DNA of 64,000 nt from Hemileia vastatrix (lineage: Eukaryota; Basidiomycota; Pucciniomycetes; Pucciniales; Zaghouaniaceae), in NCBI GenBank assembly GCA_030280995.1, contig JASXTE010000002.1:25455683-25519682 (forward strand). The letters are read 5' to 3'. The stretch's first letter is position 1, and each line of letters opens with the position of its first letter. Below the pieces are notes generated by a model, which saw only the letters and a list, made by a program, of their open reading frames with translations, was not told where the DNA came from and made no database searches. The translations under genes were made by a program, and so were the position numbers. Below are positions 17,880-62,513 of this stretch, piece after piece.

Positions 17880-20800
17880 TCTTAGACAACCTCATTGTTG
17901 TTTCCATTGATCAATAATGGTGCCTTGAGAGGGGCAATAAAAATTGAGCTATCTTCAAGATTTTTTATGATCTCAGCATCTTCCACTGTAGATAAATCAC
18001 TATTCTCAATATCAATATTATTTAAATAAGGAATACCCTCTTCCAGAATTAGAATTTCTTGGTTAAATTCATATGAAATATTTCTGGCACAGTCACTTGA
18101 ATTATAATCTAGTGCTATTGTGTCATAAGCATGTTTCTCTGTTTGTTCAACAAGATTTATCTTCTTGTCACAAACATTGACTTTCTTCAGAGGCTTTCTG
18201 CACTTGAAGCAAGTGTTTGTTGCATACTTTTTAGGTGAAACAGGGGCAGAAGGTTTACTGACATTTTTCAGAGGTTTTTGTTGGTAATTGGAGGTTTTCT
18301 CCAATGTCTCACCGGACAAACTACGCACAAGGTCGAGGGTGTTTCTGGAAGTGAGATGAGGAGAGTAGTTTAGGAACTTCTTGGAAGCACAGAGGAAATG
18401 TTCAAGCAAGTGATTCTAAGATGACTCAAAGGATGAGCTACTGATTTGAGATATGTTTGATAAGAATTCTAATATAATTTAAAGGTAATATTAATATTCT
18501 TAAGATCTCACAAAGGGTTGGAAACTCAATAATCAAAGATTTAGGATTTAGAAATGATTACTCAGAAAATAAGGAAAGATACAATAATAATGATTTAACC
18601 TGAAGCTTTTACCACTATTAACTATATATACGTTTTATAATTTAATTCTAAAGAATATTGAACCAAAACCCAACCCCTTTTATACCCTTTACTCCTCCTC
18701 GCATTGACCTCATACCCATCCATTATTCCGCACACCACAGACCATTGAAAATACACCCGTTACACCTGGAACCTCCGCACTAACATCTGTCAACCCTTTA
18801 ATCCTCCACTAACTATTCCGTCCATGCTCACTACCCCTTTTAATAATCCACAAATGCTTAATAAACCTTTTAGCGGACTATTACATTGACTATTGCGCTG
18901 TGCATCACTTATTGAGGAAAAGACTAACACACACTATTGAAAGATTGACTAATTTAGATTTAGAGTTTAGACTAGCAAGTTTTAATAGTGACTACACAAA
19001 GGAAAGTCACAGTTTCTATGTAGAATTTCTTTCTGCGCTTTGAGTATGGATTTAGACCTCTGTATTATTGATTTAATGAGCTGCCTTTGCCTTGAGTGTC
19101 ACGTGGCGCATGACACAATGAGATTTTAGAAATTAATCTTCTAGAATAATCCTTGTTTTTTATAAGGATATCTTTACATGTGTTAATGAAAGAAGAGGGT
19201 TCCCTTGAGAAATCAGTCCTAGAAGCTATTAAGTCTTTCAGAGACATAGGTAATTTATAAAGGATCCTGTCCTTCCATAATTCAAAATTTATATCTGGGT
19301 CCTTTTCCCTCAAGATTTTTACAAGTTTCATCAGGAACTCAATAGGATTTTTCTGTAGAAGAGCTATATCTTGTTTCCTCATATTACTTTTGTTGAGCTA
19401 ACCTAAATTTGGAACCACCAAATTGTGCTTTAATTAATTTTTTCAATCTTCCCATGAGTAGTCATTTTTATCAAAGAGAAAAGATTCATACCACATTAGG
19501 GCTATATTGGTAAATAAAGAAATTGATTTTGACACAATTTCCTTATCTGGGAGTTTGTAAGAATTTTTTAGATTTTCAATCCTGCAAATGAACTGTTGCC
19601 AATCAGAGGGAGAGTCACCATCAAATGTTGGATACTGGTCAAGTTTTGGCCAATTCTTTTGATTTGCATTATTTTCCTTATTAAAAGCTTGATTCTGAGT
19701 GAGAAGTAACTGTAAATTCTCCAGTTGGGCAGAAATTTCATTGTTTGATCTTTCTGTGGATGATTCAGGTACATCATCAAATTTTGATAGAAACTAAGTG
19801 ATATCAACAGATATTTCTGGAACTAATTTTTCTTTGGATGAACTAGGAACAGGTAAAATTGAGGTATCCTGCACCACATTTTCTTTCACAGAAATGTCAG
19901 AAAACATTTGATTATGTAACAATGAATTCTATTTCTCCTCAAAGGTTGTTAACCTAGTTTTTACTCTTAGAATACTAGAAAAATTCTCATTGATGGTTGC
20001 AAAAGATAACTGATTCTTATTTTGTAAAGATGAATAATGGTTAATCAAACTTTCTAAGTTCCTCTTATGTACTTCTAGCTCCTGGCAACAAATGGACACA
20101 TCATCTTTTAATTTAGACAAATAATTCTTGATATTTTTCCATAAAGCAACTTTCTATTCATCAGTTACTTTATAATGAAACAAATCATCAGAGACTCTCT
20201 GTAACTCACTCCTCAATGCTTGATAAACCTGTTCAGTTAACAAACTATTTTATTTCTGAGTCACTTGCATGTTGTTCATTATATGATTTTGTTTAGCAAT
20301 AATATCTCTCAAATATTCTTCATTAATGTTAGCTACATCTGGAGTATTTCTCAATATTGAAACAGAATAACTTTCCATATTCTCATAAAACTCAGGATCA
20401 AGTATCTCATCAATAAAAGCCATATCAGGATTTATCATTGAAGTAGCAATCAAAACCAAAGAATAGATACATTAGAATATTGAGTAACTTTTCTACTATT
20501 CTCAGCCTCTACTGATCTCACAGATTCATCTCCTCTTCCAAAATTACCTGAAGGAACTGCATCATTTACAAGAAATGGTACTTGAGATTCAATAGAGGGG
20601 CTTACCATGGCTTGGGAAAGACCTGAATGTGATTGTTTTTTCTCTTTCTTCCTCCTTGGTAGGGGTGAGGAGGTGTGGGTCTGAACTGGTTGGTTCTTGA
20701 AGGACCTGCCTGAGGTACTTGTTGCTGTTGTTGTTGGGACAGATAATCTCACTGGGTGTTCAGCCAATCTACTGCCTCTTTGAGACTTCCAGCTTTTCTT

Positions 20801-21222
20801 GCTTCTGGGAGGCCAATTGTGGAAGGTCTTTTGGAGGAGGTGGTTTCCTTTTCTTTTGAAAGAAGGACTCTATTTTTCTTACCTTGTCTTCTAGAGACTC
20901 TGTTTTTGACCACAGCTTGAGGTTTTCCAACCTCAACTCCTTAATGTGAGTGGAGAGATTTTTGACTTGCTGATTCAAGGGTATTTTTTTTATTTTGAAG
21001 CCTTTTGGAAGATATTCTAGGGGGTTGATAGAAGGATTTTGATCATGAGAAGTTGTCTCCACTAATATTTCCATCTCCTGCATTTCTACATCTGGATTGG
21101 TCCAGTAATTGATTAATTTGAGCCACTTTTGTAGTCAAAGGAGAACTTACAGAATAAGATTCATCATAATTAATTAAATCAAGTCCCTCATCACGGCCAG
21201 CTAAATCACCTTGATCAGTCAT
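17880..21222 (-). pseudogene. Gag and protease of A2
   Basis: Reading from ATG 21222: a 24-codon exon-like start ending at a GTAAGT donor (21150), the overlapping coiled-coil frame at 21083-20769 (KIKKIPLNQQVKNLSTHIKELR), then Gag coiled-coil and capsid fragments (20767-19065), the solo LTR, and a zinc-knuckle/protease-linker part (18306-17882: NTCFKCRKP; the protease DSG region near 17880 is degraded). The order equals A1. All parts carry stops or shifts. Confidence 0.8.
18307..19115 (-). mobile_element. Solo LTR in A2 gag (809 bp)
   Basis: This block interrupts A2 gag between sequence matching A1 around 34180 and 34190. It is flanked by direct repeats CAATG (18302-18306 and 19116-19120). 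On the minus strand it starts TGTCATGCGCC and contains TATAAAAGGGG (about 18680), so it looks like a solo LTR of an otherwise unseen family. It has no coding capacity. The exact right boundary is ambiguous by two bases. Confidence 0.7.
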
Positions 21223-24890: not shown

Positions 24891-24930
24891 AAATTTTTTT
24901 ATATATATCTGCTAATTATTATTGGTCTTT

Positions 24931-29325: not shown

Positions 29326-29854
29326 TGTCAGCCAGGCTACTAGACTTACCCAGTGAAATAAGTAATTATTTACTGGATGAAGCCGCACCTTATCATCTTT
29401 AATTATTATTTAATTATCATTTAGTTACATTAACATTAGTTATAAATTAACTAGTTACAGAATGTTAAAATTAAATTAATTAATTAAATAAATAAGTAAC
29501 ATTATAATTATAATTTTGTCCCTTATATTTTCTCTAACACCGTGCTAAACTGACAGGTTGGGAAAAATAAAACTTTATATTTAAAAAATAAAATACAAAG
29601 ATAAAATAAGATTTAAATATTCAAATAATATTAAATATATACAAATAAATCAAATTTCTTATTTGGAATTGACATTTACAGTAAATATTAAAAATATTGA
29701 TGTATTTCTGACACACTCTGTAAATACATCTTTTTTGACACCTTCTTTTTGGAATAACTTTATTATTTGAAATACTCTTTCTGGAATGTTCTTTTTCTCT
29801 CTTTTTCCCTACTGTTTTTAGAATTTGATTTCCCTGCTTTGTCTCTCCTTTGCC

Positions 29855-29861
29855 TATAAAA
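29855..29861 (+). promoter_or_regulatory. TATA box of A1 LTR promoter
   Basis: TATAAAA within TGCCTATAAAAGGCC. The same box is in the 3' LTR (38683 region), in A2 and in the A4 LTR. The MITE inserted about 60 bp downstream, close to the expected RNA start region, so in this copy the transcript would include or be altered by MITE sequence. Confidence 0.6.
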
Positions 29862-29921
29862 GGCCTCTCTTTTGTTGTCTTTTGATCATTCTATCTTACC
29901 AAACCATTTTATTACAACAAT

Positions 29922-30808
29922 CACCACGCAATATGGGGGGCGGACTTGCTAGCAAGTCCGCAACCTTGAACCCTAATTCATATCTTTTTGAGCACACATT
30001 GAGGAAGTGATGAAACCATCATGAAGAAGTATTGAATTTACTTTGAACACACCTTGAAGCTCATGTGAACACAAATGGGGCTACAAGGGCTGGAAAGGCT
30101 GGAGAGAGGGGTGAGGAAGGGTGTATGGGGTAGCAAAAAGGTTGGGAAAGAGTTGGAAGGGAAGATTAAGGGTTCCGAGGCATTTTAAATGAAGAAAAGG
30201 GTCTGGGAGAGGTTGAGAGGGGTGAAATGGGGATCAAAAGAGGATGGCATACAATGGGGCTGGGAGGATAGCGAAAGGCATGGGAAGGGAAGACAAGCAT
30301 GTGTTGATAGAATTGAAAGGGATGGAGATTGGTGCAAACAGAGTGTGAAAATAGGAGGATGAACTCTGTTCTTTGGGCGAAGAACAGAGTTCACTTCCAT
30401 AAAATATTAGCTGAAACATAGTTTTCAATTCTGTAAAAACAGTTGTAAGTAATAGAAAAAGTCACTGATTTTTTTTATATGTAATCTGAAATTTTTTAAT
30501 AAAATTATTGTATTTAAGAATTGCAATATTGTCAATCAATTTTTATTGATCAAATTAATTTAATAAAGTATTATTTTAATAAGCTGTTTCAAAAAATACT
30601 TTGCATTGAGTAGACTCATGGAATGATTTTTTCTGGCTTCCATTCAGTTATCCTCACACTTTCACTATGTTTTCAATATAGATCCATTGTTATTTGTGTG
30701 ATACTTCAAGTGAAAGTTCAGTATTACTTCAGTCTGAGTTCCATCTGATTTCCATCTGACTTCAAGTTGCGGACTTGCTAGCAAGTCCTCCCCCTATATT
30801 GCATGGTG
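29922..30808. mobile_element. CACTA-like MITE, 887 bp, in A1 5' LTR
   Basis: The ends are CACCACGCAATAT and, reverse complemented, CACCATGCAATAT. The 18-bp palindrome GGACTTGCTAGCAAGTCC occurs near both ends. The target duplication is AAT (29919-29921 and 30809-30811). The 3' LTR of the same element lacks it and shows the empty site (38746-38756 area). The interior (about 30050-30720) is unrelated to the 261-bp relatives and has no transposase; it is G-rich on the plus strand with no convincing ORF. Confidence 0.9.
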
Positions 30809-31035
30809 AATAACCAAATAAACACTTATTCTTATACTCTATATCATTAGTACTTACAATAGCATAATTCTAATTTATAAATTATATTAATATTTTAATC
30901 CTACCTCTGTTTTTGAGTAAAACATTCACCTTTGAATTAAGAAATACGTACAAGGTTGTTGAAAATCCATTTAAGCCTTATAAATCCTCGTAGAACTACG
31001 TACCAAATCTTCTAGACTAAAAGTGACCCTTGAAA

Positions 31036-31054
31036 ATTGGGGGCCTTTCCGGGA
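31036..31054 (+). other. Primer-binding-site position of A1
   Basis: ATTGGGGGCCTTTCCGG follows the LTR directly. D has ATTGGGGACCTTTTC at the same place and A2 has GAGGCCCTTTCC. The conservation supports a role in first-strand priming. I could not match it to the 3' end of a known tRNA, so self-priming or an unusual primer is possible. Confidence 0.5.
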
Positions 31055-31175
31055 ATATTGACGGCGCAACGTTACTTGAGGCGTAATCCAGAGGACCATC
31101 GGCGTAGAAGCACCTGTAAAGGACGAGTGGAGGCAAGAAAACGACGAACGTCATACGTCACGTGATAAAAGTTTT

Positions 31176-31205
31176 TGCTGCGAACGGGAATCGAACCGCG
31201 CTCCA
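31176..31205 (-). other. tRNA 3'-half-like segment in A1 leader
   Basis: The minus strand reads GCGCGGTTCGATTCCCGTTCGCAGC. The core GGTTCGATTCC is a perfect box B consensus of RNA polymerase III genes. It is conserved in A2 and A3 leaders (22009-22038 and 41864-41892). Acceptor and D-arm partners are not visible, so it is not a tRNA gene. Confidence 0.45.
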
Positions 31206-31497
31206 AAACTTAAGTTCATATACTGACTAAAGATTGTATATATCGTGGTAATTATTGTGATTACTATTTGTGGGTTACTCTTCACTCTTCATTTGCTACG
31301 TATTTCCTTTTACTCAGCACTCTGTAAGTGGCATTAATTTGCTCATTTTGCAGGGGGAGGTGTCTGGTAATTGGAATTTAATTTTATTATTATATTTTTT
31401 TTTTATTTTTCCTGGTTGACCATAATAGAGCAATAACTGTTCTTAGTCCCAGAGGTAATAAAATAATTATATATTAATATTAATTATTATCATTTTT

Positions 31498-31990
31498 CAG
31501 TTGACAATTGTCCTGATTAATTTGAATTTTAATTGTTCCAGTTGACAAACTGTCCTGACAATAATATATTTTATTAAATAAAATAATTATTATAATTTTT
31601 CAGTTGACATTTGTCCTGATTAATTAATTGTTCCAGTTGACAAATTGTCCTGACAATTATATTTTTTTTAATAAATAATTAACATTTCATTACTTCAGTT
31701 GACTTTGAGTCCTGGTAATGCAAAAAATCTTTTTAAGTAATAAAATTCATATTTAAATTAATTCAGTTGACATTAAGTCCTGGTAGTCAATTAATCAGTT
31801 AAAATAATTTTTATTAATAAAGATTCATATTTGATTATTTCAGTTGACAATAAATCCTGGTAATAAATTAGCTGATTTAAATCCTGAAAATAAAAATTAA
31901 TAGAAATTCTAATTTATTTCTACAGTTGATTGCATTATCCTGGTTTTAAATTTGTTTTATTAATTTTATTTAAGTTGATTTTTATCCTAA
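31498..31990 (+). repeat. Leader stem-loop array of A1 (about 9 copies)
   Basis: Copies begin CAGTTGAC at about 31498, 31539, 31599, 31633, 31692, 31765 and 31842, with weaker ones near 31923 and 31974. Each reads CAGTTGAC, a few bases, GTCCTGRTAAT. The GAC/GTC arms form a short stem. Spacers are AT-rich and vary from 20 to 60 nt. The array ends about 100 nt before the gag ATG. Confidence 0.8.
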
Positions 31991-32097
31991 AAAGATTTTT
32001 TATTTATTTATTTTTATTTTATTTCTGTTAAAAAAAAATTAAAAATAAAAGACTAATTAATTTTGTCTCTTTTCCTTCATTTCAGTAGAATCTTAAA

Positions 32098-32797
32098 ATG
32101 ACTGATCAAAGTGGTTTTACTGCACGTGAAGAAGAACTAGACTTAATTGATTATGATAAGCCTACTTCTGTAAGTTCTCCTTTAACAAGAAGAATTTCTC
32201 AAACTAATAAATCCTTGCCCCAAACAGGATGTGGAAATGGAAGAAGTAGAAATCCTAGTGGACAATACTCAGGATCAGAAACCCAGGACAAACCCACCAG
32301 AAGAGCTTCCAAGAGGCTTCAAGATAAAAAAGATGCTGTTGTCCCAGCAGATAAAGAATCTGTCAACCCACATAAAGGAGTTAAAGACAGACAGCTTAAA
32401 ACTAAAGGTAAGGGTAGATGCCTTGGAAGAATGGGAGAAAAGAAAAAATACTTCTCTCCAAGAGAAAAGGAAACCTCTTCCTCCCAGGGATCAACAACAA
32501 TTGGCTCCCCAATCCCAAGAGATGGTAGAAGTGTTCAAGTGGCAGTGGGACTGGCTCAACACACAGTGGGACTACTTAGCTCAAAATCAGCATCAATTAC
32601 CTCAGGTAGGTCCATCAAGGCCCACCCAGGCAAACCCCACTCCTCCCCACCCTTATCAAGGAGGCAAAAGAAGAAGGAAGCCCAATATGGTGATACCCAG
32701 AAAACCCTGGTACGTCCCTCTATTGATTCTCAAGTGCCTTTTCTTGTGGCTGACTCTGTTCCTTCAGGTAAATCTGGAAGACAAGATGAAACCTTGA
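32098..32797 (+). CDS. Predicted spliced accessory ORF overlapping gag (A1)
   Basis: Exon 1 is 32098-32169 (24 codons, shared with Gag). Removing a 58-nt intron (32170-32227) joins it in phase to a second frame, 32228 onward. That frame encodes DVEMEEVEILV, PPEELPRGFKIKKMLLSQQ, a heptad-like segment (LSTHIKELKTDSLKLKVRV), FKWQWDWLNTQWDYL and PPHPYQGGKRRRK, then KPW. In A2, A3 and D the codon after the KPW/KTW/RPW tryptophan is TAA; here it is TAC, so the frame runs 29 codons further. The coiled-coil and WxWDW features are shared with D, whose frame is otherwise divergent, which argues for protein-level selection. Function unknown; an RNA-binding, assembly or regulatory accessory role is possible. 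Confidence 0.6.
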
Positions 32798-34848
32798 GAC
32801 CTATAGAGGCTGGGAATAGTAGACAGTTATCTCATGTATCCAATCCATTACGTTTAATTGCTACCTCAATAATTAATCCTGATATGGCTGTGATTGATGA
32901 AACTCTTGACCCTGAGTTCTATGAGAGTCTGGAAAGTTACTCAGTTTCCTTATTGAGAAACACTCCGGATGTAGCAAGAATTAATGATGAGCACTTGAGA
33001 GATATTATTGCCAAGCAAAATCATATAATGAACAATATGCAATTGACTCAGAGATATAATAGTTTGTTAACTGATCAGGGTTATCAGGCATTAAAAAGTG
33101 AAGCACAGAGAGTCTCTGATGAATTGTCTCATTACAAAGCAACCCATGAAAAGAAAATTGCTTTATGGCAAAATATAAAAAATGATTTGTCTAAACTAAA
33201 AGATACTGTATCTGCCTGTTGCCAGGAGGTAGAGATAGATAAGATAAATCTGAAAAGATTGAGTGACCAGTTGTCATCTTTTCAACATAAAAATCAATTA
33301 TCTTTTGCAACTGTCAATGAAAGTTTATCTAGTCTTCCAAGAATGAAAACAAGACTAACAACCATTGAAGAAACATTGAACTCATTGTTAAATGACCAAA
33401 AATATTCTGACAATTCTGTGAAGGAACATATAGTGCAGGATTCTCAACCAGTACCTGTGGCTAGTTCATCTAAAATAAAAATTGATCCAGAAATACCTGT
33501 TGATAACACTGAGTTTCCATCAAAAACTGATGATGCACCAGGATCTGCAACAGAAGGATTAAACAATGAGATTTCAGCACAATTAGAGAAATTACAGCTT
33601 CTTCTTACTCAGAAACAAGCTAGTACTAAGGAGACTCCTTCAAATCAAAAGAATTGGCCAAAACTTGACCAGTACCCAACATTTGATGGTGATTCTTCCT
33701 CTGATTGGCAGCAATTTATTTGCAGAATTGATAATTTAAAAAATTCTTACAAACTCCCAGATGAGGAAATTGTGTCCAAATTAATTTCTTTGTTCACTAA
33801 TGTTGCCCTGATGTGGTATGAATCTGTTCTCCTGGATGGGAATGACTATTCATGGGAGGATTGGAAGAAATTAATTAAAGCACAATTTGGTGGCTCCAAG
33901 TTCAGAATGGCTCAACAAAGGCAGTATGAGGAAACTAGATATAGCTCTTCTACTGATAAACCTATTGAGTTTTTAATGAAACTTGTAAAAATCTTAAGGG
34001 CAATGGACCCAAATATGGAGTTTGATTTATGGAAGGACAGGATCCTCTATAAATTACCAATGTCTCTGAGAGACTTGATTGTGGCTAGGACTGAGTTCTC
34101 CAAAGAACCCTCTTCTTTCATTAATACTTGCAATGAGATACTTCTAAACAATAAGTATGATGCAAGAAGATTCATTCCTAGGACCCCTTTGGAGAAACCC
34201 TCCACTTACCAACAAAAACCTCTGGAAAAGGTTGGTAAACCTTCTGCCCCTATTGCACCAAAGAAGTATACAACAAACACTTGCTTCAAGTGCAACAAGC
34301 CTTGGCAGAAAGGCCATGTTTGTGACAAGAAGATAAATCTTGTGGAACAAACAGAGGAGCATGCTGATGACACAGTGGCACTGGATGATACATCAAGTGA
34401 TTGTGCCAGCAATATTTCATATGAATCTCAACAAGAAATCTTGATGCTGGAAGAAGATATTCATTATTTAAATACTATTGACATTGATAATAATGATTTA
34501 TCTACAGTTGAGGATGCTGATATCATAAAGAACATTGAGGATAACTCAATTGTTATTGCCCCTCTTAAGGCACCAGTTTTGATTAATGGAACCAGCATTG
34601 AAGTTGTTCTGGATTCTGGAGCTGGTGGAAGTGTAGTATCTGAAAGAGCACTTGCCTCAGTAGATCAAGACTATAAATCTAAACTGTTGCCTATCATTTC
34701 TGAAAATTGGAGAGGGTATGGCTCTGTTTTGTCCCCCATTGGTAAATACAAAGCCACAGTGTTTTTTAAATATAACCATGGTTTTGTAAGAGCTATTTGT
34801 GATTTTGTTGTCATGAAAAATGATAACTTAGGAATTGGTTTATTGTAG
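32098..34848 (+). CDS. gag: Gag-protease of chromovirus A1 (916 codons)
   Basis: Starts at ATG 32098, shared with the spliced ORF. The N-terminal 240 residues are basic, Ser/Gly-rich and overlap another coding frame. Residues about 280-440 form a coiled coil. Capsid-like Gag begins near 517 (NWPKLDQYPTFDGDSSSDW). A zinc knuckle variant CFKCNKPWQKGHVC is near 728. The aspartic protease has VVLDSGAGGSVVS near 836. Gag packages element RNA in cytoplasmic particles and the protease cleaves the polyprotein. The frame ends because of a 1-nt deletion close to 34830; A3 and A4 show that it should continue into RT. Confidence 0.85.
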   Translation: MTDQSGFTAREEELDLIDYDKPTSVSSPLTRRISQTNKSLPQTGCGNGRSRNPSGQYSGSETQDKPTRRASKRLQDKKDAVVPADKESVNPHKGVKDRQLKTKGKGRCLGRMGEKKKYFSPREKETSSSQGSTTIGSPIPRDGRSVQVAVGLAQHTVGLLSSKSASITSGRSIKAHPGKPHSSPPLSRRQKKKEAQYGDTQKTLVRPSIDSQVPFLVADSVPSGKSGRQDETLRPIEAGNSRQLSHVSNPLRLIATSIINPDMAVIDETLDPEFYESLESYSVSLLRNTPDVARINDEHLRDIIAKQNHIMNNMQLTQRYNSLLTDQGYQALKSEAQRVSDELSHYKATHEKKIALWQNIKNDLSKLKDTVSACCQEVEIDKINLKRLSDQLSSFQHKNQLSFATVNESLSSLPRMKTRLTTIEETLNSLLNDQKYSDNSVKEHIVQDSQPVPVASSSKIKIDPEIPVDNTEFPSKTDDAPGSATEGLNNEISAQLEKLQLLLTQKQASTKETPSNQKNWPKLDQYPTFDGDSSSDWQQFICRIDNLKNSYKLPDEEIVSKLISLFTNVALMWYESVLLDGNDYSWEDWKKLIKAQFGGSKFRMAQQRQYEETRYSSSTDKPIEFLMKLVKILRAMDPNMEFDLWKDRILYKLPMSLRDLIVARTEFSKEPSSFINTCNEILLNNKYDARRFIPRTPLEKPSTYQQKPLEKVGKPSAPIAPKKYTTNTCFKCNKPWQKGHVCDKKINLVEQTEEHADDTVALDDTSSDCASNISYESQQEILMLEEDIHYLNTIDIDNNDLSTVEDADIIKNIEDNSIVIAPLKAPVLINGTSIEVVLDSGAGGSVVSERALASVDQDYKSKLLPIISENWRGYGSVLSPIGKYKATVFFKYNHGFVRAICDFVVMKNDNLGIGLL
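32170..32227 (+). other. Predicted 58-nt intron in A1 gag
   Basis: Donor GTAAGT, branch-like ACTAAT about 22 nt before the end, acceptor AAACAG followed by G. Equivalent 58-nt intervals are at 42758-42815 (A3) and 51085-51142 (D, minus). In A2 it is 21092-21150 with a one-base shift at the acceptor. 58 is not a multiple of three, so splicing switches frame, and the intron itself is open in the Gag frame. Confidence 0.6.
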
Positions 34849-34880
34849 GGAATGATATTTTAACCAAGTATGGCATAAAA

Positions 34881-37800
34881 TTGGATCCTTCAAACCAATG
34901 TTTCACAATGGGGTTGAATGGGAAGAGAAAATTTAAAATTTCATCCCCTAAAAAATTATTAAAACCAGAATTGAACACATGTAATTCTGTGGTTCAATAT
35001 AAAGGAAGATCTACAAAGGAAATGCATGCCCTTATGTCTGAAATTGACAATGCCTCTTTTGGAGAACAACTTTCTGGTGAGGATAAAGATTCCATCATTA
35101 ACTTGATAAAATCTTTTCCTATGGCCTTTGCTCATGGGTCACATGAACTGGGATTAGTTAAGGAGGAAATGAAACTTTCATTGTCTTGCCCATTAACTGA
35201 TATACCACCTAGTTTAAAGAAGAAGCCTTATCCTGCTTCTCCCACAAAGAGAAAAGATATTGAAGACAATATCTCTACCCTTTTAAAAATGAATATTATT
35301 GAAAAGGTAGTTGAAACACCTAAATATTGTGTTATCTCACCTGTCCTAATTTCTTATGAGAAAGATAAAGCCAGGTTATGTGGTGATTATAGAGCACTAA
35401 ATACTTATACTGTTGATGATATCTATCCTTTACCTAGAATGAGCTCTATACATGCTACTTTACAGGGTGCTAAATATATCAGCTGTTTGGATGGTAATAA
35501 GGGATATCACCAGGTACCTGTTGAGAAAAATTCTCAGAAATTTCTGATGATTGCCACTCATATGGGTATTTATAAGTATATTAGGATGCCATTTGGCCCT
35601 AAAAATGCCCCTTCTGTTTTCCAAAAAGTAATGGATAACACATTCCATCAAGAGATAATTGAAGGTTGGCTGATGGTTTATATTGATGATATCATTATAT
35701 TCTCAAAAACATTTGAGGACCATCTTAAACACCTGTGTAAAGTATTCCAGAAAATGGACAAAATAAATATGACACTTGCTTTGAAGAAATGTAAATTTGG
35801 TTTCCATTCTTTAAAAGTTCTTGGTCATGTTGCTTCAGGCTTACAGATATGTGTTGACCAGAACAAAGTGGCAGCCATACAACAGGTGAAAGCTCCTACA
35901 ACAGTAAGAGAGCTCCAAAGTTTTTTGGGAATGTGTGGATACTATAGACAGTATATTAAAAATTACCAAGTCATAGCTTTACCCCTTACCCAATTAACTA
36001 GAAATGATGTTGCTTTTGTCTGGAATAGTGAAATACAAAGAGCCTTTGACACTATGAAACACTGTTTGATGTCAGCACCAATTCTTGCTTTACCTGACTT
36101 TGATCAACCATTTGTTTTGTACACTGATGCCAGTTTCATTGGTCTTGGTGCTGCCCTCCATCAAAAACAAGTGATAAATGATAAAGTTTCAGAAGTAGTA
36201 ATTTGTTATATTTCAAGAACCTTGAGAAATAGTGAATTGAAATATTGTGCTACTCAATTAGAGTGTTTAGCTGTAGTATGGGCTCTAGAAAAGCTTCATT
36301 ATTACCTAGATGACCAGAAATTTGAACTTGTCACTGACTGCAGTGCAGTTAAATCCCTTTTGAACTTGAAAACACCTAATAGACATATGTTTAGATGGCA
36401 GCTGGCTGTTCAAGAGTACAGAGGGAGAATGACAATTATTCACAGAGCTGGTATTGGTCACTCAAATGTGGATATGTTATCAAGGTTACCCTTACCAAAT
36501 GATGACTCAAATCCTGCATATGATCCTGAGGATGAAATTATCCATATCCATGGGATATATGTGGTTGATATGGAGGAAGAGCTATTACAGCTTATTCTGG
36601 AATCATATGATAAGGACACTGACTTGAAAAAGTTATGCACCATATTAAATGATCCAAAGAATGCTTCAATACAAGCATTAATTAAAACCCTTCCACCAAA
36701 GTACCAAAAAGGTTTGGAAAAAGGAAAATTTTCAATTGATGAAGGATATCTATATTATAGAAGAAAGTTGAGTAATGTTATTGTTATTTCTCCTTCTATG
36801 AAAGAAATCATCTTGAAAATTTGTCATGATGACATATTAGCTGGACATTTTGATCTTGACAAAACAATGATCAGAATTAAGAACACTGCTTGGTGGGCTA
36901 ATATGTCTGAAGACACAAAATTATATGTTGAATCCTGTGATTCATGCCAAAAATCAAAAAGATTAACTGGTAAAAGAGCAGGATTAATGCAACATATTGA
37001 ACCTCCTGATGCCCCATGGCAAATAATAAATAGAGATTTTGTAACAGGATTACCTATTGCTTGTAAAGACAGTTATAACTCTTGTTGGGTTATTGTGGAC
37101 AGATTCACAAAAATGTGTAAATTTATCCCTACCCACAAGGATGTTTCCACTAAAGAATTAGCTTTCTTATGGTGGTCTCATATGTTTAATACTGCTGGTT
37201 TTCCTAAAGCCATAATCTCTGACAGAGACCCTAAATTTACTTCTGAATTTTGGATGTCTCTGTTGGATGTTTGTGGTTGTGATCTGAAACTTTCTACTGC
37301 CCATCACCCTCAGACTGATGGTTTAGCTGAAAGAATGATTCAGACTTTAGAGGACATGATAAGAAGATATTGTGCCTTTGGCCTTGAGTATAAAGATAAT
37401 GACAGATTCACTCATGATTGGGTTACCTTACTTCCTGGGTTAGAATTTGCTTATAATAGCACTGTTCATTCTGTTACTCAAAGGAAGCCTTTTGAGCTCT
37501 GGCTTGGATATGTTCCTAATACTCCTGCCCAAATTCTCAATAACAAAATACCTAAATTGGATATACATCCTGGTGTAAAATCTTTTCTTCAAATGCAACA
37601 ACTATGCAGAAATCATGCTCAAAAATGTATTGAAAAATCATTTGAATATGAGAAGAAAAGATGGGACAAATCCCATAAAGAATACACTTTTAAAAAGGGT
37701 GATGAAGTGTTGATTTCTACAGTCCACTTCAACTTACAAGGTAATAATAAATTAAAAGATCCATTTGTTGGTCCTTTTGTTGTCAGAAGAATGATTGGAG

Positions 37801-38120
37801 ATAATGCAGTTGAAGTTATTCTGTATTCCCCATATGACAGAAAACATCCTGTTTTTCCAATATCTCTTTTGAAACCTTACACATCCAATAGTGATTTATT
37901 TCCAAGAAGGAGGGGTAGACCAAAGAAAACCCCAAATGAAATCACTGAGACAGCAGAAATTGAAAAAATATTAAATGACAGAATAGTCACTGCTGAGAAA
38001 GGTACAGAATACTTATTGAGATTCAAGAATAAATCATCTGAATATGATTCTTGGATACCTGGGAAGGAGATATCTAATCTTCCTACTCTACTAAAAAAGT
38101 ATAAGAAGAAAAAATCATAG
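34881..38120 (+). CDS. pol: Pol of chromovirus A1: RT, RNase H, integrase, chromodomain
   Basis: A 1079-codon frame in -1 register to the gag frame. RT: YTVDDIYPLPRM, NKGYHQVPVEKNSQ and the catalytic VYIDDIIIFS at about 265. RNase H: LYTDASFIGLGAAL at about 413, TQLECLAVVWALEKL and ELVTDCSAVKSLL. Integrase: CHDDILAGHF and CDSCQKSK (HHCC, about 645-690), RDFVTGLP, SDRDPKFTSEFW and HHPQTDGLAERMIQTLEDM (DDE). The C-terminus has RRGRPKKTPNE and a chromodomain (EYLLRFKNKSSEYDSWIP, about 1035-1077), which directs integration to particular chromatin. All catalytic residues are present. The first ATG is internal to the protease tail; the natural product would be part of Gag-Pol. Confidence 0.9.
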   Translation: MDPSNQCFTMGLNGKRKFKISSPKKLLKPELNTCNSVVQYKGRSTKEMHALMSEIDNASFGEQLSGEDKDSIINLIKSFPMAFAHGSHELGLVKEEMKLSLSCPLTDIPPSLKKKPYPASPTKRKDIEDNISTLLKMNIIEKVVETPKYCVISPVLISYEKDKARLCGDYRALNTYTVDDIYPLPRMSSIHATLQGAKYISCLDGNKGYHQVPVEKNSQKFLMIATHMGIYKYIRMPFGPKNAPSVFQKVMDNTFHQEIIEGWLMVYIDDIIIFSKTFEDHLKHLCKVFQKMDKINMTLALKKCKFGFHSLKVLGHVASGLQICVDQNKVAAIQQVKAPTTVRELQSFLGMCGYYRQYIKNYQVIALPLTQLTRNDVAFVWNSEIQRAFDTMKHCLMSAPILALPDFDQPFVLYTDASFIGLGAALHQKQVINDKVSEVVICYISRTLRNSELKYCATQLECLAVVWALEKLHYYLDDQKFELVTDCSAVKSLLNLKTPNRHMFRWQLAVQEYRGRMTIIHRAGIGHSNVDMLSRLPLPNDDSNPAYDPEDEIIHIHGIYVVDMEEELLQLILESYDKDTDLKKLCTILNDPKNASIQALIKTLPPKYQKGLEKGKFSIDEGYLYYRRKLSNVIVISPSMKEIILKICHDDILAGHFDLDKTMIRIKNTAWWANMSEDTKLYVESCDSCQKSKRLTGKRAGLMQHIEPPDAPWQIINRDFVTGLPIACKDSYNSCWVIVDRFTKMCKFIPTHKDVSTKELAFLWWSHMFNTAGFPKAIISDRDPKFTSEFWMSLLDVCGCDLKLSTAHHPQTDGLAERMIQTLEDMIRRYCAFGLEYKDNDRFTHDWVTLLPGLEFAYNSTVHSVTQRKPFELWLGYVPNTPAQILNNKIPKLDIHPGVKSFLQMQQLCRNHAQKCIEKSFEYEKKRWDKSHKEYTFKKGDEVLISTVHFNLQGNNKLKDPFVGPFVVRRMIGDNAVEVILYSPYDRKHPVFPISLLKPYTSNSDLFPRRRGRPKKTPNEITETAEIEKILNDRIVTAEKGTEYLLRFKNKSSEYDSWIPGKEISNLPTLLKKYKKKKS

Positions 38121-38143
38121 CATTTTTTTTTATTATTTTTTTT

Positions 38144-38155
38144 AGAGTAAGGGAG
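38144..38155 (+). other. Polypurine tract of A1
   Basis: AGAGTAAGGGAG directly precedes the 3' LTR and follows a T-rich run. The same tract is seen in A2, A3 and A4. It primes plus-strand DNA synthesis. Confidence 0.75.
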
Positions 38156-38973
38156 TGTCAGCCAGGCTACTAGACTTACCCAGTGAAATAAGTAATTATT
38201 TACTGGATGAAGCCGCACCTTATCATCTTTAATTATTATTTAATTATCATTTAGTTACATTAACATTAGTTATAAATTAACTAGTTACAGAATGTTAAAA
38301 TTAAATTAATTAATTAAATAAATAAGTAAAATTATAATTATAATTTTGTCCCTTATATTTTCTCTAACACCGTGCTAAACTGACAGGTTGGGAAAAATAA
38401 AACTTTATATTTAAAAAATAAAATACAAAGATAAAATAAGATTTAAATATTCAAATAATATTAAATATATACAAATAAATCAAATTTCTTATTTGGAATT
38501 GACATTTACAGTAAATATTAAAAATATTGATGTATTTCTGACACACTCTGTAAATACATCTTTTTTGACACCTTCTTTTTGGAATAACTTTATTATTTGA
38601 AATACTCTTTCTGGAATGTTCTTTTTCTCTCTTTTTCCCTACTGTTTTTAGAATTTGATTTCCGTGCTTTGTCTCTCCTTTGCCTATAAAAGGCCTTTTT
38701 TGTTGTCTTTTGATCATTCTATCTTACCAAACCATTTTATTACAACAATAACCAAATAAACACTTATTCTTATACTCTATATCATTAGTACTTACAATAG
38801 CGTAATTCTAATTTATAAATTATATTAATATTTTAATCCTACCTCTGTTTTTGAGTAAAACATTCACCTTTGAATTAAGAAATACGTACAAGGTTGTTGA
38901 AAATCCATTTAAGCCTTATAAATCCTCGTAGAACTACGTACCAAATCTTCTAGACTAAAAGTGACCCTTGACA
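38156..38973 (+). repeat. 3' LTR of A1 (818 bp)
   Basis: TGTCAGCC...TTGACA, the uninterrupted version of the 5' LTR, containing the MITE empty site. It is followed by the target duplication CTACC (38974-38978). Confidence 0.95.
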
Positions 38974-41843: not shown

Positions 41844-43608
41844 ACATGACTTCCTTTTTTTTTCCGTGACGGAGAATCAAACCTTGCTCCAAATATAAGG
41901 TTTATATATTGGAAATTGTCATATATATTTGTGGTGACTGTAATAGATACTATCTGTGGGTCTCACTTTGCATATTTCATAGTTTATGTATATCTTTTTT
42001 ACTCAGCACTCTGTAGTGACATTTATTTGCACTTATTAAAGGGGGAGGTGCCTGGTAAATAATAAACTTTTTTTCCTAGTTGATCAATATAGAACTATCT
42101 TGTATTTAGTCCTAGATGTAATATAAATTAAATAAATTATAATATATATATTTTTATTATTACTTCAGTTGACCTTTTTTCCTGATAATTAAAATATTAT
42201 ATTATTGTTTCAGTTGAAAAATTGTCCCGGAAGTAAAGTAATAGATATATAAAATTAATTGAATTAATTATATTAAATTATTTAAGTTGAAATTGAGTCC
42301 TGGTAATTAAATTTCTCAGTTGACTCTTAGTCCTGATAATTATCAACGTAAATATTAGTAATTAATTGAGAGTTGTGTTAATTATTCCAGTTGACTCTTT
42401 TTCATGATAATTAATAAATTATTTTATTATTTCAGTTGATTTATTTTAAATACTGGTAATAAAATATAAATATCTTAATTTAATAAATAAAAATTGGGAT
42501 TATTATTTCAGTTGATTTTTTGTCCTGATAAAAATTATATTTTCATTATTCCAGCTGATTAGAAAATCCAGATAATTGATTATTAACTTAAAATATTTTT
42601 TATTTTTTCTCTTATTTTTTTAACAAAGTAAAATAATAACTGATTAAATTTTAATATTTCTTTCTCTCAGTTCAGGTTATCCACAACAATTACTGATCAA
42701 ATTGCTTCTGCTGCCTGTGATAAGGAGCTAGAATTGATTGATTATGATGAGATTTCTGTAAATTCTCCTTTGACTACAAAACTTGCTCAAGTTAATCAAT
42801 TATTGGACCAATCAGGATGTGGAAATTCAAGAAATAGAAATTTAAGGGAAAAAACTGCTCTGGATCAAAAGCCTTCAGTGAACCCCCCAGAAGAGCTTCC
42901 ATGAGGATTCAAAATAAAAAAGATGCCCTTACAGCAGAAAGTCAGCAACCTCTCCACTTCCATCAAGGAGTTGAGGACAGAGAACCTCAAACTAAGATCA
43001 AAAAAAGAAATTCTAGAACAAAAGGTAAGAAACAAACAATCATTTCTTAAAGAGAAGAGGAAAACTCCCCCAGAAACAAATGTCCTTCCACAATTGGCTC
43101 CTCAACAGCAGGAAAAGGTGAAATTTTCAAAATGGCAATGAGACTGGTTAAAAAACCAGTGGGACTATCTCCTGGCCCAACAACAACAGCAAGCACCTCA
43201 GGCAGGTCCTTCCAGGCAACATCAGCTCAACCCAACACCTCCTCACCCCTACCAAGGAGGAAAAAAGAGGAAGAACAATCAAATTCAATTTTTTCCAAAA
43301 ACATGGTAAGAACTTCTATTGAATCCCAAGTACCCTTTCTTGTTACTGATTCAGGTTCTTCAGGTAAGTCTGGATGAGGAGATGATACCTTGAGACCAGT
43401 AGAGGCTGGCTGTAGTAGGCAGATTGCTCAATATTTTAATGTAACTAATTCTTTGGTATTGATTTCTACCTCAATGATAAATCCTGATATGGCTATTATA
43501 GATGAAACACTTGATCCTTAATTTTATGAGAATCTGGAAAATTATTATGTTTTCCTATTAAGAAAGACTCCAGATGAAGCTAACATTAATGATGAATATT
43601 TGAGAGAT
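41844..43608 (+). pseudogene. Chromovirus A3, leader and gag N-terminal part
   Basis: It starts inside the A leader (tRNA-like segment at 41864-41892), continues with the stem-loop array and then a degenerate gag start. The gag ATG region lies near 42690-42757, the 58-nt intron is at 42758-42815, and the accessory frame continues at 42816-43309 (NLSTSIKELRTENLKL, KTW then TAA) with stops at 42903 and 43141. Element D interrupts it at 43609; it continues at 53248. The A3 5' LTR is missing, replaced by LTR-C. Confidence 0.8.
42163..42560 (+). repeat. Leader stem-loop array of A3
   Basis: About nine degenerate copies (CAGTTGACC...TCCTGATAAT, CAGTTGACTC...GTCCTGATAA, CAGTTGATTT...GTCCTGATAA and others) with AT-rich spacers, collinear with the arrays in A1 and A2. 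Confidence 0.7.
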
Positions 43609-45108
43609 TGTCAGGCTAAGGTCAAGTACAAGGACGTGAACTAGCTTGAATAGTCAGTTGTCTAGAAGATTTTAATGGGCCTATATGAATACTGTAGTTT
43701 TAATCCACTAAGTTATAAAATATAATCAAATATAAAGGTCTCAGTAATATAATTCTCACTACTCTGATATATGGCTTACAATCTTTGTAGTTGGTAGAAA
43801 AATAGATTATTTAATTCAGATACTATTCAAAAGTCTTATAAAAGTACTAATTGATATGTATTGTAATTTATTTGGTTATATTGGTTAAATTGTAATGATA
43901 AAGAATGAAGAAACACAACCCAAAAACCTCCTCCTTTTATACACACTGAGTCCCCCAATGATTCCCTTGATGTACCACCCAATACACAGTTAATGACGCC
44001 TCTAAACAACTAATAGACATGCCCATCAACATTCCCAGTAACCCATGACATAATTAGAAGAGTAACAACCGCCAAAATCCTGTAATAATAAGGGAAATCC
44101 ATCAAAATTAAAGAAAAAGACAAAAAGAGAGTATATGCGTATAAAACAATAATATTAAAGACTAAAGGAGACTTTTTAAGGTTAATAATAGCTTAATAAT
44201 AAGGGGGATTTACTGTAGAAATAATGGGGCTAATCCTGACATTATACTACGTGAAATTCCCATTCAAAAATAACCAAAATTGACTGAGAAACCACCCAAA
44301 AACTTAAAAAAGAGCGTGAGAGGTGGGGTAACTACATGCAGTTCTTGGAAGGCGCTTGCACGGGTAAATCCTTGACTAAAATTAGGCGAATTTAAGCGTG
44401 GTGATGAAATAAAGTGCCAAGAGTGAGGTTATTAATGAAATTAGTGCATATAAACAAGGTCAATGCATTATTAATTAAGCTAGGACACTAAATAAGCGCC
44501 TGTCGCCTATTTTAGTGTGTTTCCCCACAGTGGGCGTAGAATGTGGGGTAATTATAGTGTGAAAAAGCTAACTTTGCTAAAAATGAAGCTATTCACATGG
44601 GAAAAAAGCAGGCAGTATGTGGCCAGTACACAGAAGCCATTTCTGGCATAAAAAACACCAAATTTGAAAATTGTTATTTTTATGCATTTAAATAGCAAAA
44701 TAAATAGTTCTAAATGAGCCCAATTGATCTGTCAAAGCTCAATTTTGATATTCTCAATTTTATAGCGCATATAGTCAACTTTTAAGTGAAATAAAGTGCA
44801 TTTCTTGTTTTTTGCATAAAACAATGAATATAACAGCTTTAAGTGTACTTAAAAATTATGTAGCCTTATACTTAAGGTTCTTAAGATTACCCTAACATAT
44901 TCCAACTTAATATTAAGTACATAAGACCTATAAAAGTTGGATATATGCGTGTATATATGGTGTTATAATGGCATTTTTTGTGTATTATCATAATTTTACT
45001 TATGTATACTATTTGTGTACTCTTATTTATTATTCCCATGTATAGTTCATGTGTTTAACATAACTTATAATTACTTTTTACTCAGTCCTGGAGATATACA
45101 GGCTGACA
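43609..45108 (-). repeat. 3' LTR of D (1500 bp)
   Basis: Plus-strand ends TGTCAGGCTAAGG and ATACAGGCTGACA. The pyrimidine-rich CTCGCCCACCC directly to the right is the complement of the polypurine tract. Confidence 0.95.
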
Positions 45109-45289
45109 CTCGCCCACCCAAAAAAAACAATAAAAAAAATGATAAGTTATACATTTTATTTTATTAATTTGTAATTTTCAGGTATTCAGAATAAATCTGT
45201 AGCATTAAAGATTAAACTTTAAAGAAATAAAACATAATAAAATATTATGAGTACTGGTTTTTTAACCCCTCAGCTGGTTGAACAGAAAT

Positions 45290-48200
45290 TTATTTCTGTT
45301 TAAATTTTTTAAGAAGGGTGGATAAATTAGAAATTTCTTTTTCAGGTATCCATTTATCAAATTCATTTGATTTCCCTTTAAATCTTAGTAAATACTCAGT
45401 TCCTTTTTCTTTAGTAAGGATTCTTTTCTTGAGTATTTTTTCAATCTCTGCTTTTTCCACAATTTCATCAGGTTGCTTCTTAGGCCTTCCCCTTCTTTTT
45501 GGAAATAAGTCAGGATCATTTGCATGGTAAGGTTTCAATAATGAGATAGGGAAAACTGGATGTTTCCTATCATATGGAGCATATAATATGACTTCCACTG
45601 CATTATTCCCAACCATTTTATTTACTACAAAAGGTCCTACAAAGGGATCCTTTAATTTAACATTACCTTGTAAGCTAAAATGTAGTGTTGATATGAGGAC
45701 TTCATCTCCCTTTTTAAATTCAAATTCTTTATGAGATTTGTCCCACCTTTTCTTTTCATATTCAAATGCTTTTTTGATGCATTCTTCTGCATGCTTTCTA
45801 CACATTTGTTGCATATGAACAAAGGATTTAGTGCCAGGGTGTATATCCAACCTTGGTAGTTTATTTAAATGATTTACTGGGGTATTTGGTATGTATCCCA
45901 GCCAGAGTTCAAATGGTTTCTTCTCTGTTACAGAATGAGTTGTGCTGTTATAAGCAAATTCAAGGCCAGGAATTAATGTTACCCAGTCATGTGTGAATTT
46001 CTCATTGTCTTTGTATTCTAATCCAAAGGCACAATATCTTCTTATCATGTCTTCTAGAGTTTGTATCATCCTCTCAGCCAGCCCATCAGTTTGTGGATGG
46101 TGTGCTGTAGACAATTTTAATTGACAACCTGATACTTCCATCAAAGATGTCCAGAACTCTGAAGTAAATTTAGGATCTCTGTCAGAGATTATGGCTTTGG
46201 GGAACCCAGAAGTATTCATCATCTGAGTCCACCATAGTAGTGCCAAGTATTTTGCAGATACCTCCTTATGGGTAGGGATAAACTTACACATTTTTGTTAA
46301 TCTATCCACTATTACCCAGCAAGAATTGAAACTTTCTTTTCCTGCTAATCTCAAGCCAGTTACAAAATCCATGTTAATAATTTCCCATGGAGCTTTTGGC
46401 TGCTCTATTTGTTGTAACAACCCAGCTCTCTTCCCAGTCAATCTCTTATATTTCTGACAAGAGTCACATGTTTCAATGTATTTCTGTACATCCTCTTTCA
46501 TGTTTATCCACCAGGCTGTATTTTTAACTCTGGTTAATGTTTTGTTAAAGTCAAAATGACCAGCTAAGATGTCATCATGACAAGTACTCAACATTAACTC
46601 TTTCATAGAAGGTGGTATTACTATTACATTGCTTAACTTTTTCCTGTAATATATATATCCATCTTCAATCGATAGTTTACCTTTTTCCAACGCATTTTTA
46701 TACTTTGGAGGCAAGGTTTTAATTAATGCACTCATGGAGGCATTTGTTGGATCATTAAGAATGGTAGATAGTTTAGACAAATCTTTATCAGATGAATAAT
46801 TTTCCAATATAGTTTGCATAAACTCTTCTTCTAAATCCACTATATAAATCCCAAATATATGTATAACCTCATTTTCAGGTACATAAGCTGGGTTGTCAGC
46901 ATCATTTGGCAAAGGACTTCTGGATAATAAATCCACATTTGAATGCAATGTTCCTGCTCTGTGAGTGATTGTCATTCTTCCTCTGTACTCTTGTACAGCT
47001 AGTTGCCATCTAAACATGTGCCTATTAGGTGTTTTCATGTTTAGTAATGATTTTACTGCACTGAAATCTGTTATAAGTTCAAACTTCTGGTCTTCCAGAT
47101 AGTAATGAAGTTTCTCCAAAGCCCACACCACGGCCAAACATTCTAGCTGTGTGGCACCATACCTTAATTCTGTTTTTCTTAAGGTTCTGGATATATAACA
47201 GATAACTACTTCAGATAATTTTCCATTTATTATCTTTTTCTGCTGTAAAGCAGCACCCAGACCTATGAAACTTGCATCAGTGTACAAGATAAAAGGTAGG
47301 GTGAAATCTGGCAGTCCCAATATTGGAGCTGACATTAAACATTCCTTTAATTTATTAAAGGCGTGTTGTCTTTCATTATTCCAAATGAAAGCTTCATTCT
47401 TCCTGATTAATGTTGTTAAAGGGGCTGCAATGGATTGGTAATTTTTAATATATTGTCTATAATATCCACACATACCCAAAAAACTTTGAGCCTCTTTTAC
47501 ATTTTTAGTTATCCCAATGTTTTTAATTGCTGCCACCTTATTCTGGTCAACACAAATTTGTAATCCAGATACAACATGTCCAAGTACTTTCAAGGATTGA
47601 AATCCAAACTTACATTTCTTTAATGCAATAGTCATATTAATTTCATCCATTTTTTGAAAGACTCTTTTCAGGTGATTTAAATGTTCATCATATGTTTTTG
47701 AAAACACTATGATGTCATCAATATAGACCAATAGCCATCCTTCAACCATTTCCTGATGAAAGACACTATCCATCAATTTTTGGAAGACTGAAGGGGCATT
47801 CTTTGGGCCAAATGGCATTCTCACATACTTATATATACCCATATGTGTGGTTATCAATAAGTAATTTTGAGAATTTCTTTCCACAGGAATCTGGTGGTAA
47901 CCCTTGTTCCCATCCAGACAGGAAATATATTTTGCTCCTTGTAAGGTAGCATGGATAGAAGCTATCCTTGGTAGAGGGTAAATATCATCCACTGTGTATG
48001 TATTCAGAGCTCTATAATCACCGCATAATCTTGCCTTATCTTTTTCATAAGAGATTAATACTGGTGAAATGACACAATACTTAGGTGTTGTGTCCACTTT
48101 TTCAACAATACCCATTTCTAACAACAATTTTATATTGTCTTCAATATCTTTCCTTTTTGCAGGAGATGCTGGGTATGGTTTCTTTTTTAAGCTGCCAGGA

Positions 48201-51163: not shown

Positions 51164-51732
51164 TTTTACGTGGAATTTTAGAGAATTGAAAGTTTAGATT
51201 TGAAAAACTTCAAAAAGGAGTTTAATAAGTATTTATTAATACCACTGAAGACAATTATATTGCTTACTTATTGGTATTAAGTGGATCTTTAAGTGCCAAA
51301 AGTCAAATATGCTTTTATGTGGTCACTTGATTTAACTGGTCTACAATATGTAGCCGTGTATTTATATTTAAAAAAGAAAATTTGTTAGTAAGATTCTTTC
51401 CAAATATTAAATGAATTTTACAAACCAATAAAAAGGGATTAAGAGTCCTTTAAAAAGAAAACAATTAATCAGTTTAATTGGTTATTATCTGAAAAGATCA
51501 CAAATTTAATTGGTCTATTGACAGACTCCCACTAAGAACAATTATATGTTAAATTAGTGGTAAAATTGATGATTCAATATCACAATTTTATTATATAACA
51601 GGGCTTCTTTTTCTGAAATCACTATATAAGTGACCCCAACCTGTTGTAATTATCCAAATATTTCTATAGGGATATTATTTACGTGTACCTTCTTTGAAAA
51701 TTTCACTTACTGGATTATAACAGAATTCTTGA
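51164..51732. other. Leader of D
   Basis: AT-rich leader between primer-binding site and gag. No stem-loop array of the A type was seen. No tRNA-like box B was seen. Short inverted repeats are present but none stands out. Confidence 0.5.
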
Positions 51733-51747
51733 GAAAAGGTCCCCAAT
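51733..51747 (-). other. Primer-binding-site position of D
   Basis: On the minus strand ATTGGGGACCTTTTC follows the LTR, matching A1 (ATTGGGGGCCTTTCC). Confidence 0.55.
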
Positions 51748-62252: not shown

Positions 62253-62513
62253 CACTACGCAATATAGGGGGTGGACTTGCTAGCAAGTCCCCAACCTGAA
62301 CTCAGGCACAACTCAGATGGAACTCAGACTGAACTCATACTGAACTCATATTGAACTCTACTTGAAGACCCACCTAAAACTGTTCTGCTGAGTGGTGTTT
62401 ATCCCTGATTGTATGGTTCCTTTGTCAATAGCTCAATGTGTGTTCAATCTGTGGTGAACTTGAGTCCAAGGTTGCGGACTTGCTAACAAGTCCGCCCCCC
62501 ATATTGCGTGGTG
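62253..62513. mobile_element. CACTA-like MITE, 261 bp, in A4 RT
   Basis: The ends are CACTACGCAATAT and, reverse complemented, CACCACGCAATAT, with the GGACTTGCTAGCAAGTCC palindrome near the left end and a one-base variant near the right. The duplication is TAT (62250-62252 and 62514-62516). It is homologous in reverse orientation to 13574-13834. The insertion is in the INSIHATLQ segment of RT; family members without insertion are at 17030-17060, 35440-35470 and 47950-47975. Confidence 0.9.

Follow-up and report, generated by a model that had tools for sequence, protein, structure and literature searches.

The window analysed here is a 64,000-nucleotide (nt) stretch of the Hemileia vastatrix genome (contig JASXTE010000002.1, positions 25,455,683 to 25,519,682; 32.9% G+C) that carries the Ty3-like elements A1 (plus strand), A2 (minus), A3 (plus, interrupted by D), D (minus) and a partial E (minus). 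Inside gag of these elements lies a second open reading frame, ORF2, which would be reached from the gag start codon by removal of a short intron (intron 1). In A1, on the plus strand, exon 1 is common to Gag and ORF2 and supplies 24 codons from the ATG at 32098 (32098..32169); intron 1 (32170..32227) is 58 nt long and reads GTAAGT...CTAAT...ACAG; and exon 2, the ORF2-coding part (32228..32709), encodes a predicted long helix, a WxWDW block, an HPYxG motif, a basic run and a PW. Unspliced, the same ATG opens a Gag(-protease) frame of 916 codons (32098..34848), in which a protease-like motif can be read directly. D repeats this layout on the minus strand, with an exon 1 of 7 codons starting at an ATG at 51163 (51143..51163), a 58-nt intron 1 (51085..51142), an exon 2 ending in PW-TAA (50630..51084) and a Gag frame of 665 codons (49166..51163). 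The initial annotation of this DNA had claimed that the Gag frame is uninterrupted without splicing and that removal of 58 nt places the gag ATG in phase with the second frame, and both claims hold in A1 and D. It had also placed a 58-nt GTAAGT...AG interval 7 or 24 codons past the gag ATG in A1, A3 and D; this stands for A1 (24) and D (7) and fails in part for A3, where the 58-nt interval is kept but the donor is GTAAAT, ATT stands in place of ATG and ORF2 has a 1-nt gap. The acceptor AG of A2 intron 1 is one base off. The terminal PW or TW followed by TAA is present, as described, in A2, A3 and D; in A1 this TAA is replaced by TAC, and the frame joined at 32228 by removing intron 1 only runs on to a TGA at 32795-32797.

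Family E has the same arrangement. From its ATG (L039:4012, minus strand; loci fetched from the genome carry L numbers) a donor follows after 25 codons, intron 1 is 64 nt long and the acceptor reads CTGCAG/GATGTG; the ORF2 blocks LPKGFKIKK, HPYQQG and PLPW are those of the other families, and Gag reads without a stop over 1192 codons. ORF2 of this copy has one stop, and 25 of 30 E loci (best matches, L039 included) reach the PW. Both intron 1 lengths, 58 nt in A and D and 64 nt in E, leave a remainder of 1 on division by 3, and ORF2 ranges from 159 residues (D) to 205 (E). Two same-strand frames jointly open over at least 450 nt occur in the window only in A1, in D and in a hexamer satellite, and a second forward frame was open in none of 570 pieces of 480 nt taken from single-coded gag and pol of A1 and D. 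Of the six introns in A1, D and E, five have a CTRAY motif ahead of the acceptor, the two of E being judged by eye. The arrangement first noticed in A and D is thus confirmed, and it is extended here by a second intron, by family E and by intron-less genomic copies.

The two frames differ sharply in the selection they have experienced. Within the overlap, differences between pairs of A1, A2 and A3 fall at ORF2 codon positions 1/2/3 in the numbers 36/39/85, 40/41/81 and 31/17/63, which is the enrichment of third-position changes in the second frame that had been proposed as a check. For the same three pairs the ratio of nonsynonymous to synonymous substitution rates (dN/dS) is 0.12, 0.19 and 0.23 for ORF2 versus 1.17, 1.15 and 2.81 for the Gag frame. 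Ten A-type copies (45 pairs), comprising A1 and nine A2-type copies (L090, L092, L096-L102) of 16 fetched, gave a median dN/dS of 0.19 for ORF2 (0.08-0.66), 1.37 for Gag and 1.25 for the third frame; L091, L093-L095 and L103-L105 had been excluded beforehand as frame-shifted or imperfectly trimmed, and the last approximately 10 residues of L102, which was included, are out of frame. Because old copies drift, these values probably understate how strongly ORF2 is constrained. Polymorphism within families is sparse and biased by the choice of copies, and is not used as proof. Similarity between families follows the same division: the claim that ORF2 is alike in A and D and the Gag overlap is not was borne out, with the A1-D score reached by 0 of 1000 shuffles for ORF2 and for the Gag core, versus 582 of 1000 for the Gag overlap. 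ORF2 similarity was likewise reached by 0 of 1000 shuffles in each of the comparisons A-D, A-E and D-E. The Gag overlap of A and E is also similar (0 of 1000 shuffles), as expected because ORF2 holds the DNA.

Unconstrained Gag residues in the overlap, without similarity between A and D, are also what would be seen if ORF2 were the sole product of this region, Gag started lower down, and the open Gag frame were a by-product of ORF2 codons. Against this, when the ORF2 protein and its codon set were held fixed and synonymous codons were permuted (20,000 permutations), 4.7, 4.5 and 7.3 Gag-frame stops were expected in A, D and E and none was observed in any of them (P = 0.0015, P = 0.0012 and 0 of 20,000, respectively), and the third frame, taken as control, holds 14, 16 and 10 stops. 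Past the end of ORF2 (32713-32797), substitutions tend to fall at third positions of Gag codons (9/18, 11/19 and 8/17), although the sites are few and only one pair reaches p<0.05. We consider a by-product improbable. ORF2 is the constrained frame, and the overlapping Gag residues are near-free to change yet kept free of stops.

Copies that have lost intron 1 were sought in the whole genome (747.6 Mb, 791 contigs). A 33-letter probe for the A-type exon-exon junction, with at most three mismatches, found 52 places, 12 of them without mismatch, comprising 27 distinct strings by hand count; the E-type junction, which lacks a 64-nt intron, was found at 17 places, 11 without mismatch. Probes read backward found no place in the genome for either type, and neither did an A-type control for an in-frame deletion 3 nt shorter. 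All six of the A-type places that were read past the junction lack exactly intron 1 of A1 (58 nt). Each has an intron-bearing copy as its nearest neighbour: L106, for example, shares 99.0% identity with A1 and lies at a distance of 0.3% from the intron-bearing copies L046 and L049. In a FastTree tree, whose support values were not used, each of the six is placed among intron-bearing copies, which by parsimony indicates at least six separate losses of intron 1. Such places might instead be plain deletions or descend from an old intron-less lineage, given that each match is a stretch of 33-35 letters in the genome, that 63 of the 69 are known from the junction only, and that junction strings recur, so that some places share descent. 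We regard this explanation as very unlikely: two families whose introns differ in length both show exact GT-AG boundaries, the off-by-three control was empty, junction 1 has a single base of repeat, and the six copies are scattered on the tree. The intron-less copies would then be a DNA record of splicing plus reverse transcription of spliced RNA. A further alternative, in which two separate transcripts yield the two proteins without splicing, is scarcely credible, as the intron-less copies join exon 1 to ORF2 and four of the six that were read have the upstream ATG (the other two have ATT or ATA). At the level of genomic DNA, the junctions show exact removal of intron 1 in A and E; for D we infer it. 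A spliced product that starts at the gag start and then changes frame is read from these DNA junctions in A and E and from none in D. The proposal that one start gives two products by splicing is therefore supported by purifying selection on ORF2 together with exact junctions at 52 places for A and 17 for E, with none for D.

A second interval of 58 nt lies across the ORF2 stop. In A1, intron 2 (32710..32767, plus strand) reads TG/GTACGT...CTGAC...CAG/GTAA, and its removal would close ORF2 with the G plus TAA at 32768..32771, giving TGG-TAA; in D, intron 2 (50572..50629, minus strand) reads TG/GTAAGT...CTAAC...TAG/GTAA and is also 58 nt long. A1, A2, A3, D and E all have TG/GTANG at the W of PW (TW in A3) and YAG/GTAA exactly 58 nt on. 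Among 110 GTA(A/C)G donors in the window, YAG/GTAA follows at 58 nt in four, those of A1, A2, A3 and D, and in none at any of the remaining 19 lengths between 50 and 69 nt; the fifth case, E, lies outside the window. In A2, A3, D and E the W is followed by a stop regardless of whether intron 2 is removed, and in the A1 subfamily only once it is removed. A 203-residue open frame in most of 150 A1-type matches indicates that the absence of an unspliced stop in A1 is a state of the subfamily. The exact form of intron 2 is present in 26 of 27 A1-type, 27 of 30 D-type and 27 of 30 E-type loci, and in six of the ten older A2-type copies that could be parsed (of 16), one of the six having GTAG instead of GTAA. 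Two copies fetched for their long open frames, L104 and L105, have lost intron 2 by exactly 58 nt and retained intron 1; their intron 1 donors are GCGAGT and GTGAGT. Intron 2 is established as a structure, and its removal is only suggested, by these two copies. An RNA without intron 2 cannot reach the Gag body from the same ATG, and ORF2 is unaltered by the removal in A2, A3, D and E. Removal of intron 2 alone from the Gag frame was considered and rejected, as it would cut the open frame to 213 codons in A1 and 188 codons in D, and so was a rejoining of ORF2 to Gag through a further intron, for which the in-phase acceptors look poor. With intron 1 alone removed, the A1-type ORF2 acquires a 28-residue hydrophobic tail from intron 2 and the next bases (32710-32797), a tail kept in the three A1-like copies among the junction copies that were read (L106, L108 and L109).

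Searches of the whole genome with ORF2 returned first-look candidates numbering 19,949 for A1, 16,980 for D, 12,084 for E and 12,470 for A2, which are not copy counts; the best 150 per query were scored. The matched part is free of stops in 146 of 150 matches for A1, 149 of 150 for D and 150 of 150 for E (a query of 119 residues). Donor conservation, another check proposed at the outset, was upheld in young copies, with GTAAGT in 27 of 27 A1-type, 29 of 30 D-type and 29 of 30 E-type loci; among the 16 older A2-type copies, some of which were picked for odd frame lengths, 11 have it. Gag is open to the end of the stretch inspected in 24 of 27 A1-type, 24 of 30 D-type and 23 of 30 E-type loci.

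AlphaFold2, given three aligned ORF2 rows, places a helix between residues 38 and 80 of the part encoded by exon 2, with a predicted local distance difference test score (pLDDT) of about 90 in its core, and a second helix at 95-120 spanning the WxWDW block; the rest is unstructured in the model. W105, W107, D108, P142, Y143 and the last W are among the residues invariant in six sequences, and a basic run near the C-terminus (KRRRK, KPRRGRG, GRRKK) is apparent by direct reading. Searches of a protein collection with three or six rows of ORF2 found no relative; the collection seems poor in such genomes, because A1 Gag also matched nothing in it. No match to pol or ORF2 was found in viral contigs, and A1 ORF2 has no Pfam match at E 0.001. 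A profile search of the PDB gave 25 matches, from E 0.013 upward, which we take to be mostly coiled-coil proteins. The closest functional model comes from Cer1, a Ty3/gypsy element of C. elegans whose protein CERV, in the available part of its description, is made from spliced RNA with a start in the gag frame followed by another frame, has a potential leucine zipper, a basic run and no obvious homology outside nematodes, and acts as an RNA-export factor, with export function shown, for an RNA that must exit the nucleus unspliced (PMC10309623). By analogy with CERV, from the logic in common and from the coiled coil and basic run, a regulator of RNA export or use is the single most likely function of ORF2, although we hold this assignment as a possibility short of even odds. 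A structural, assembly or anti-silencing role stands at about even odds: the coiled coil and tryptophan block suit a scaffold, and no RNA-binding or export domain was recognised in the Pfam search of A1 ORF2 or the PDB profile search; only the analogy with CERV and the C-terminal basic run favour export, and neither excludes such a role. Taken together, scaffold, assembly and anti-silencing roles are as likely as an export regulator, or more so.

We propose that unspliced RNA would serve as both genome and Gag(-Pol) mRNA, consistent with a Gag frame that is kept open; that a short intron soon after the ATG would be removed from part of the RNA, leading the same ATG into ORF2; that a second 58-nt intron lies across the ORF2 stop; and that ORF2 is under constraint, with the overlapping Gag residues needing only to stay free of stops. 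To this joint reading (unspliced Gag(-Pol), ORF2 through removal of intron 1, the two frame constraints and intron 2 as a structure) we assign a probability of roughly 0.85. Several observations count against it. When Gag is the frame held fixed in the permutation test, support for an ORF2 that is kept open is weak (A, P = 0.066; D, P = 0.020; E, P = 0.43, the E copy used having one stop in ORF2). The D junction probe found no place in the genome, which either counters the generality of the arrangement or is a sign that D RNA is less spliced or less copied, and a CTRAY branch motif is missing from intron 1 of D. Sequence past the junction was read at 6 of 52 A-type and 0 of 17 E-type places; all six copies read retain intron 2, with no doubly spliced form among them, and the loss of intron 2 in L104 and L105 is ambiguous because GGTAA occurs at both ends and slippage gives an identical product. 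The loci were chosen as the best ORF2 matches, are hence biased to intact ORF2 and form no fair sample, and many (uncounted) of the 150 older A2-type matches carry stops. Finally, the ORF2 model is weak overall (mean pLDDT 62.7, predicted template modelling score 0.26).

In a last step, ORF2 would act in the nucleus as a basic, multimerising protein that binds RNA and favours the export or use of unspliced transcripts, in the manner of CERV in Cer1 and Rev in lentiviruses, the spliced RNA acting first and then promoting Gag. An element with introns inside gag has to bring its RNA through to the cytoplasm unspliced. A switch of the Rev or CERV kind, in which tiny gag introns would yield spliced RNA by default and the product of that RNA would license the unspliced genome, with intron 2 setting the C-terminus (in the A1 subfamily, PW if removed and the 28-residue hydrophobic tail if kept), is a tentative and somewhat doubtful extension of the joint reading. 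If true, it would represent a separately evolved export system, and the unconstrained Gag N-terminus would be the price of housing ORF2.

A1 (29326..38973, plus strand) is bounded by long terminal repeats (LTRs) that begin at 29326 and 38156, and its 5-bp target duplication is CTACC, with ends and duplication read directly. Its direct repeats are 99.0% (29326-29926/38156-38754) and 99.6% (30809-31033/38747-38971) identical, the 5' LTR contains an insertion of approximately 880 nt (29927-30808), and the 3' LTR ends are TGTCAG...TGACA; TG...CA ends with a 5-bp duplication agree with a Ty3/gypsy chromovirus. A1 pol (34881..38120, plus strand) encodes reverse transcriptase (RT), RNase H, integrase and chromodomain by Pfam, in the order RVT_1, RT_RNaseH, Integrase_H2C2, rve (below its cut-off) and Chromo (1026-1077), which places the element among chromoviruses; the Pfam domain scan covers A1 pol, and D and E pol have 70-82% DNA identity to it. 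A1 Gag gave no Pfam match at E 0.001. D (43607..53247, minus strand) sits inside A3 and has LTRs at 43607-45108 and 51746-53247 that are 99.1% alike. A2 is an old copy, with LTRs 86.7% alike, in which 20548..21222 (minus strand) contains intron 1 with its acceptor moved by 1, ORF2 pieces and the 58-nt intron 2; A3, also old, has a 58-nt intron 1, an ORF2 with the 1-nt gap and stops, and a 58-nt intron 2 at 42689..43363 (plus strand). E is partial in the window (59556..63992, minus strand), and its gag start, intron 1, ORF2 and intron 2 lie just outside, in locus L039. The passage from Gag to pol varies: in D (49021-49168) Gag is closed by a stop, yet pol continues in the same frame; in A1 the frame changes between protease and RT; and in the E copy Gag, protease and the start of RT share one frame. 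A hexamer AAAATT array (22985-24891, approximately 318 copies, 99% match) adjoins the A2 LTR.

The A1 leader (31499-31988) contains nine AGTTGA...TCCT units that are roughly palindromic (CAGTTGACA/TGTCCTG); A2 and A3 have four each, with none in D in the same search and none in E in a stricter one. A candidate leader intron in A1 (31324-32085) starts with GTAAGT in a block conserved between A1 and A2 (A3 has lost one base) and ends at a strong TTCATTTCAG acceptor 12 nt upstream of the gag ATG, and its removal would delete the leader repeats; GTAAGTG is present in the D and E leaders too. A tRNA-like T-arm stretch (GGGAATCGAACC, reverse sense) lies in the A1 leader at 31180-31205 and is similar in A2; ARAGORN found no tRNA in the window.

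To our knowledge, Ty3 chromoviruses are usually held to have only gag and pol. Lentiviral Rev and Rex of human T-cell leukaemia virus (HTLV) are regulators made from spliced RNA, with frames that overlap other genes, a type marked by an arginine-rich RNA-binding run and a leucine-rich export signal; ORF2 differs in its virus family and its position in gag. Among LTR elements, BARE of barley belongs to the Ty1/copia type. BARE makes a spliced subgenomic RNA besides the unspliced one (PMC3735527); in the accessible part of that account splicing favours a Gag-only RNA, whereas here the ATG leaves the Gag frame and another protein would be made, and Gag-only splicing of the BARE or copia type was not found in these elements. 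Plant LTR elements have additional ORFs, env-like and antisense, some with spliced RNA, according to the portion of the literature consulted (PMC7264820); unlike these, ORF2 sits inside gag. The initial annotation knew of no such arrangement in Ty3 chromoviruses of fungi, and the open-access titles and abstracts that were searched indeed describe no such gene in a fungal chromovirus, nor an extra gene of an LTR element that lies wholly inside gag or has an intron across its stop; the arrangement itself has a precedent, to judge from the available text, in nematode Cer1. Like CERV (PMC10309623), ORF2 would be translated from a spliced RNA whose reading begins in the gag frame and switches to another; as far as that text goes, the likeness is one of description, export is shown for CERV and inferred for ORF2, and the rust elements differ in having two tiny introns, a product of 159-205 residues and a second frame lying wholly inside gag. 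Very numerous families would thus have in common a constrained third gene reached by splicing, in a clear case of overlapping genes where constraint bears on the sequence of one frame and, for the other, on nothing more than its staying open, and the export of unspliced RNA by cellular LTR elements becomes testable outside animals. LTR elements with extra genes expressed by splicing are already known, but in the literature searched none was met in a chromovirus, wholly within gag or with an intron across the stop.
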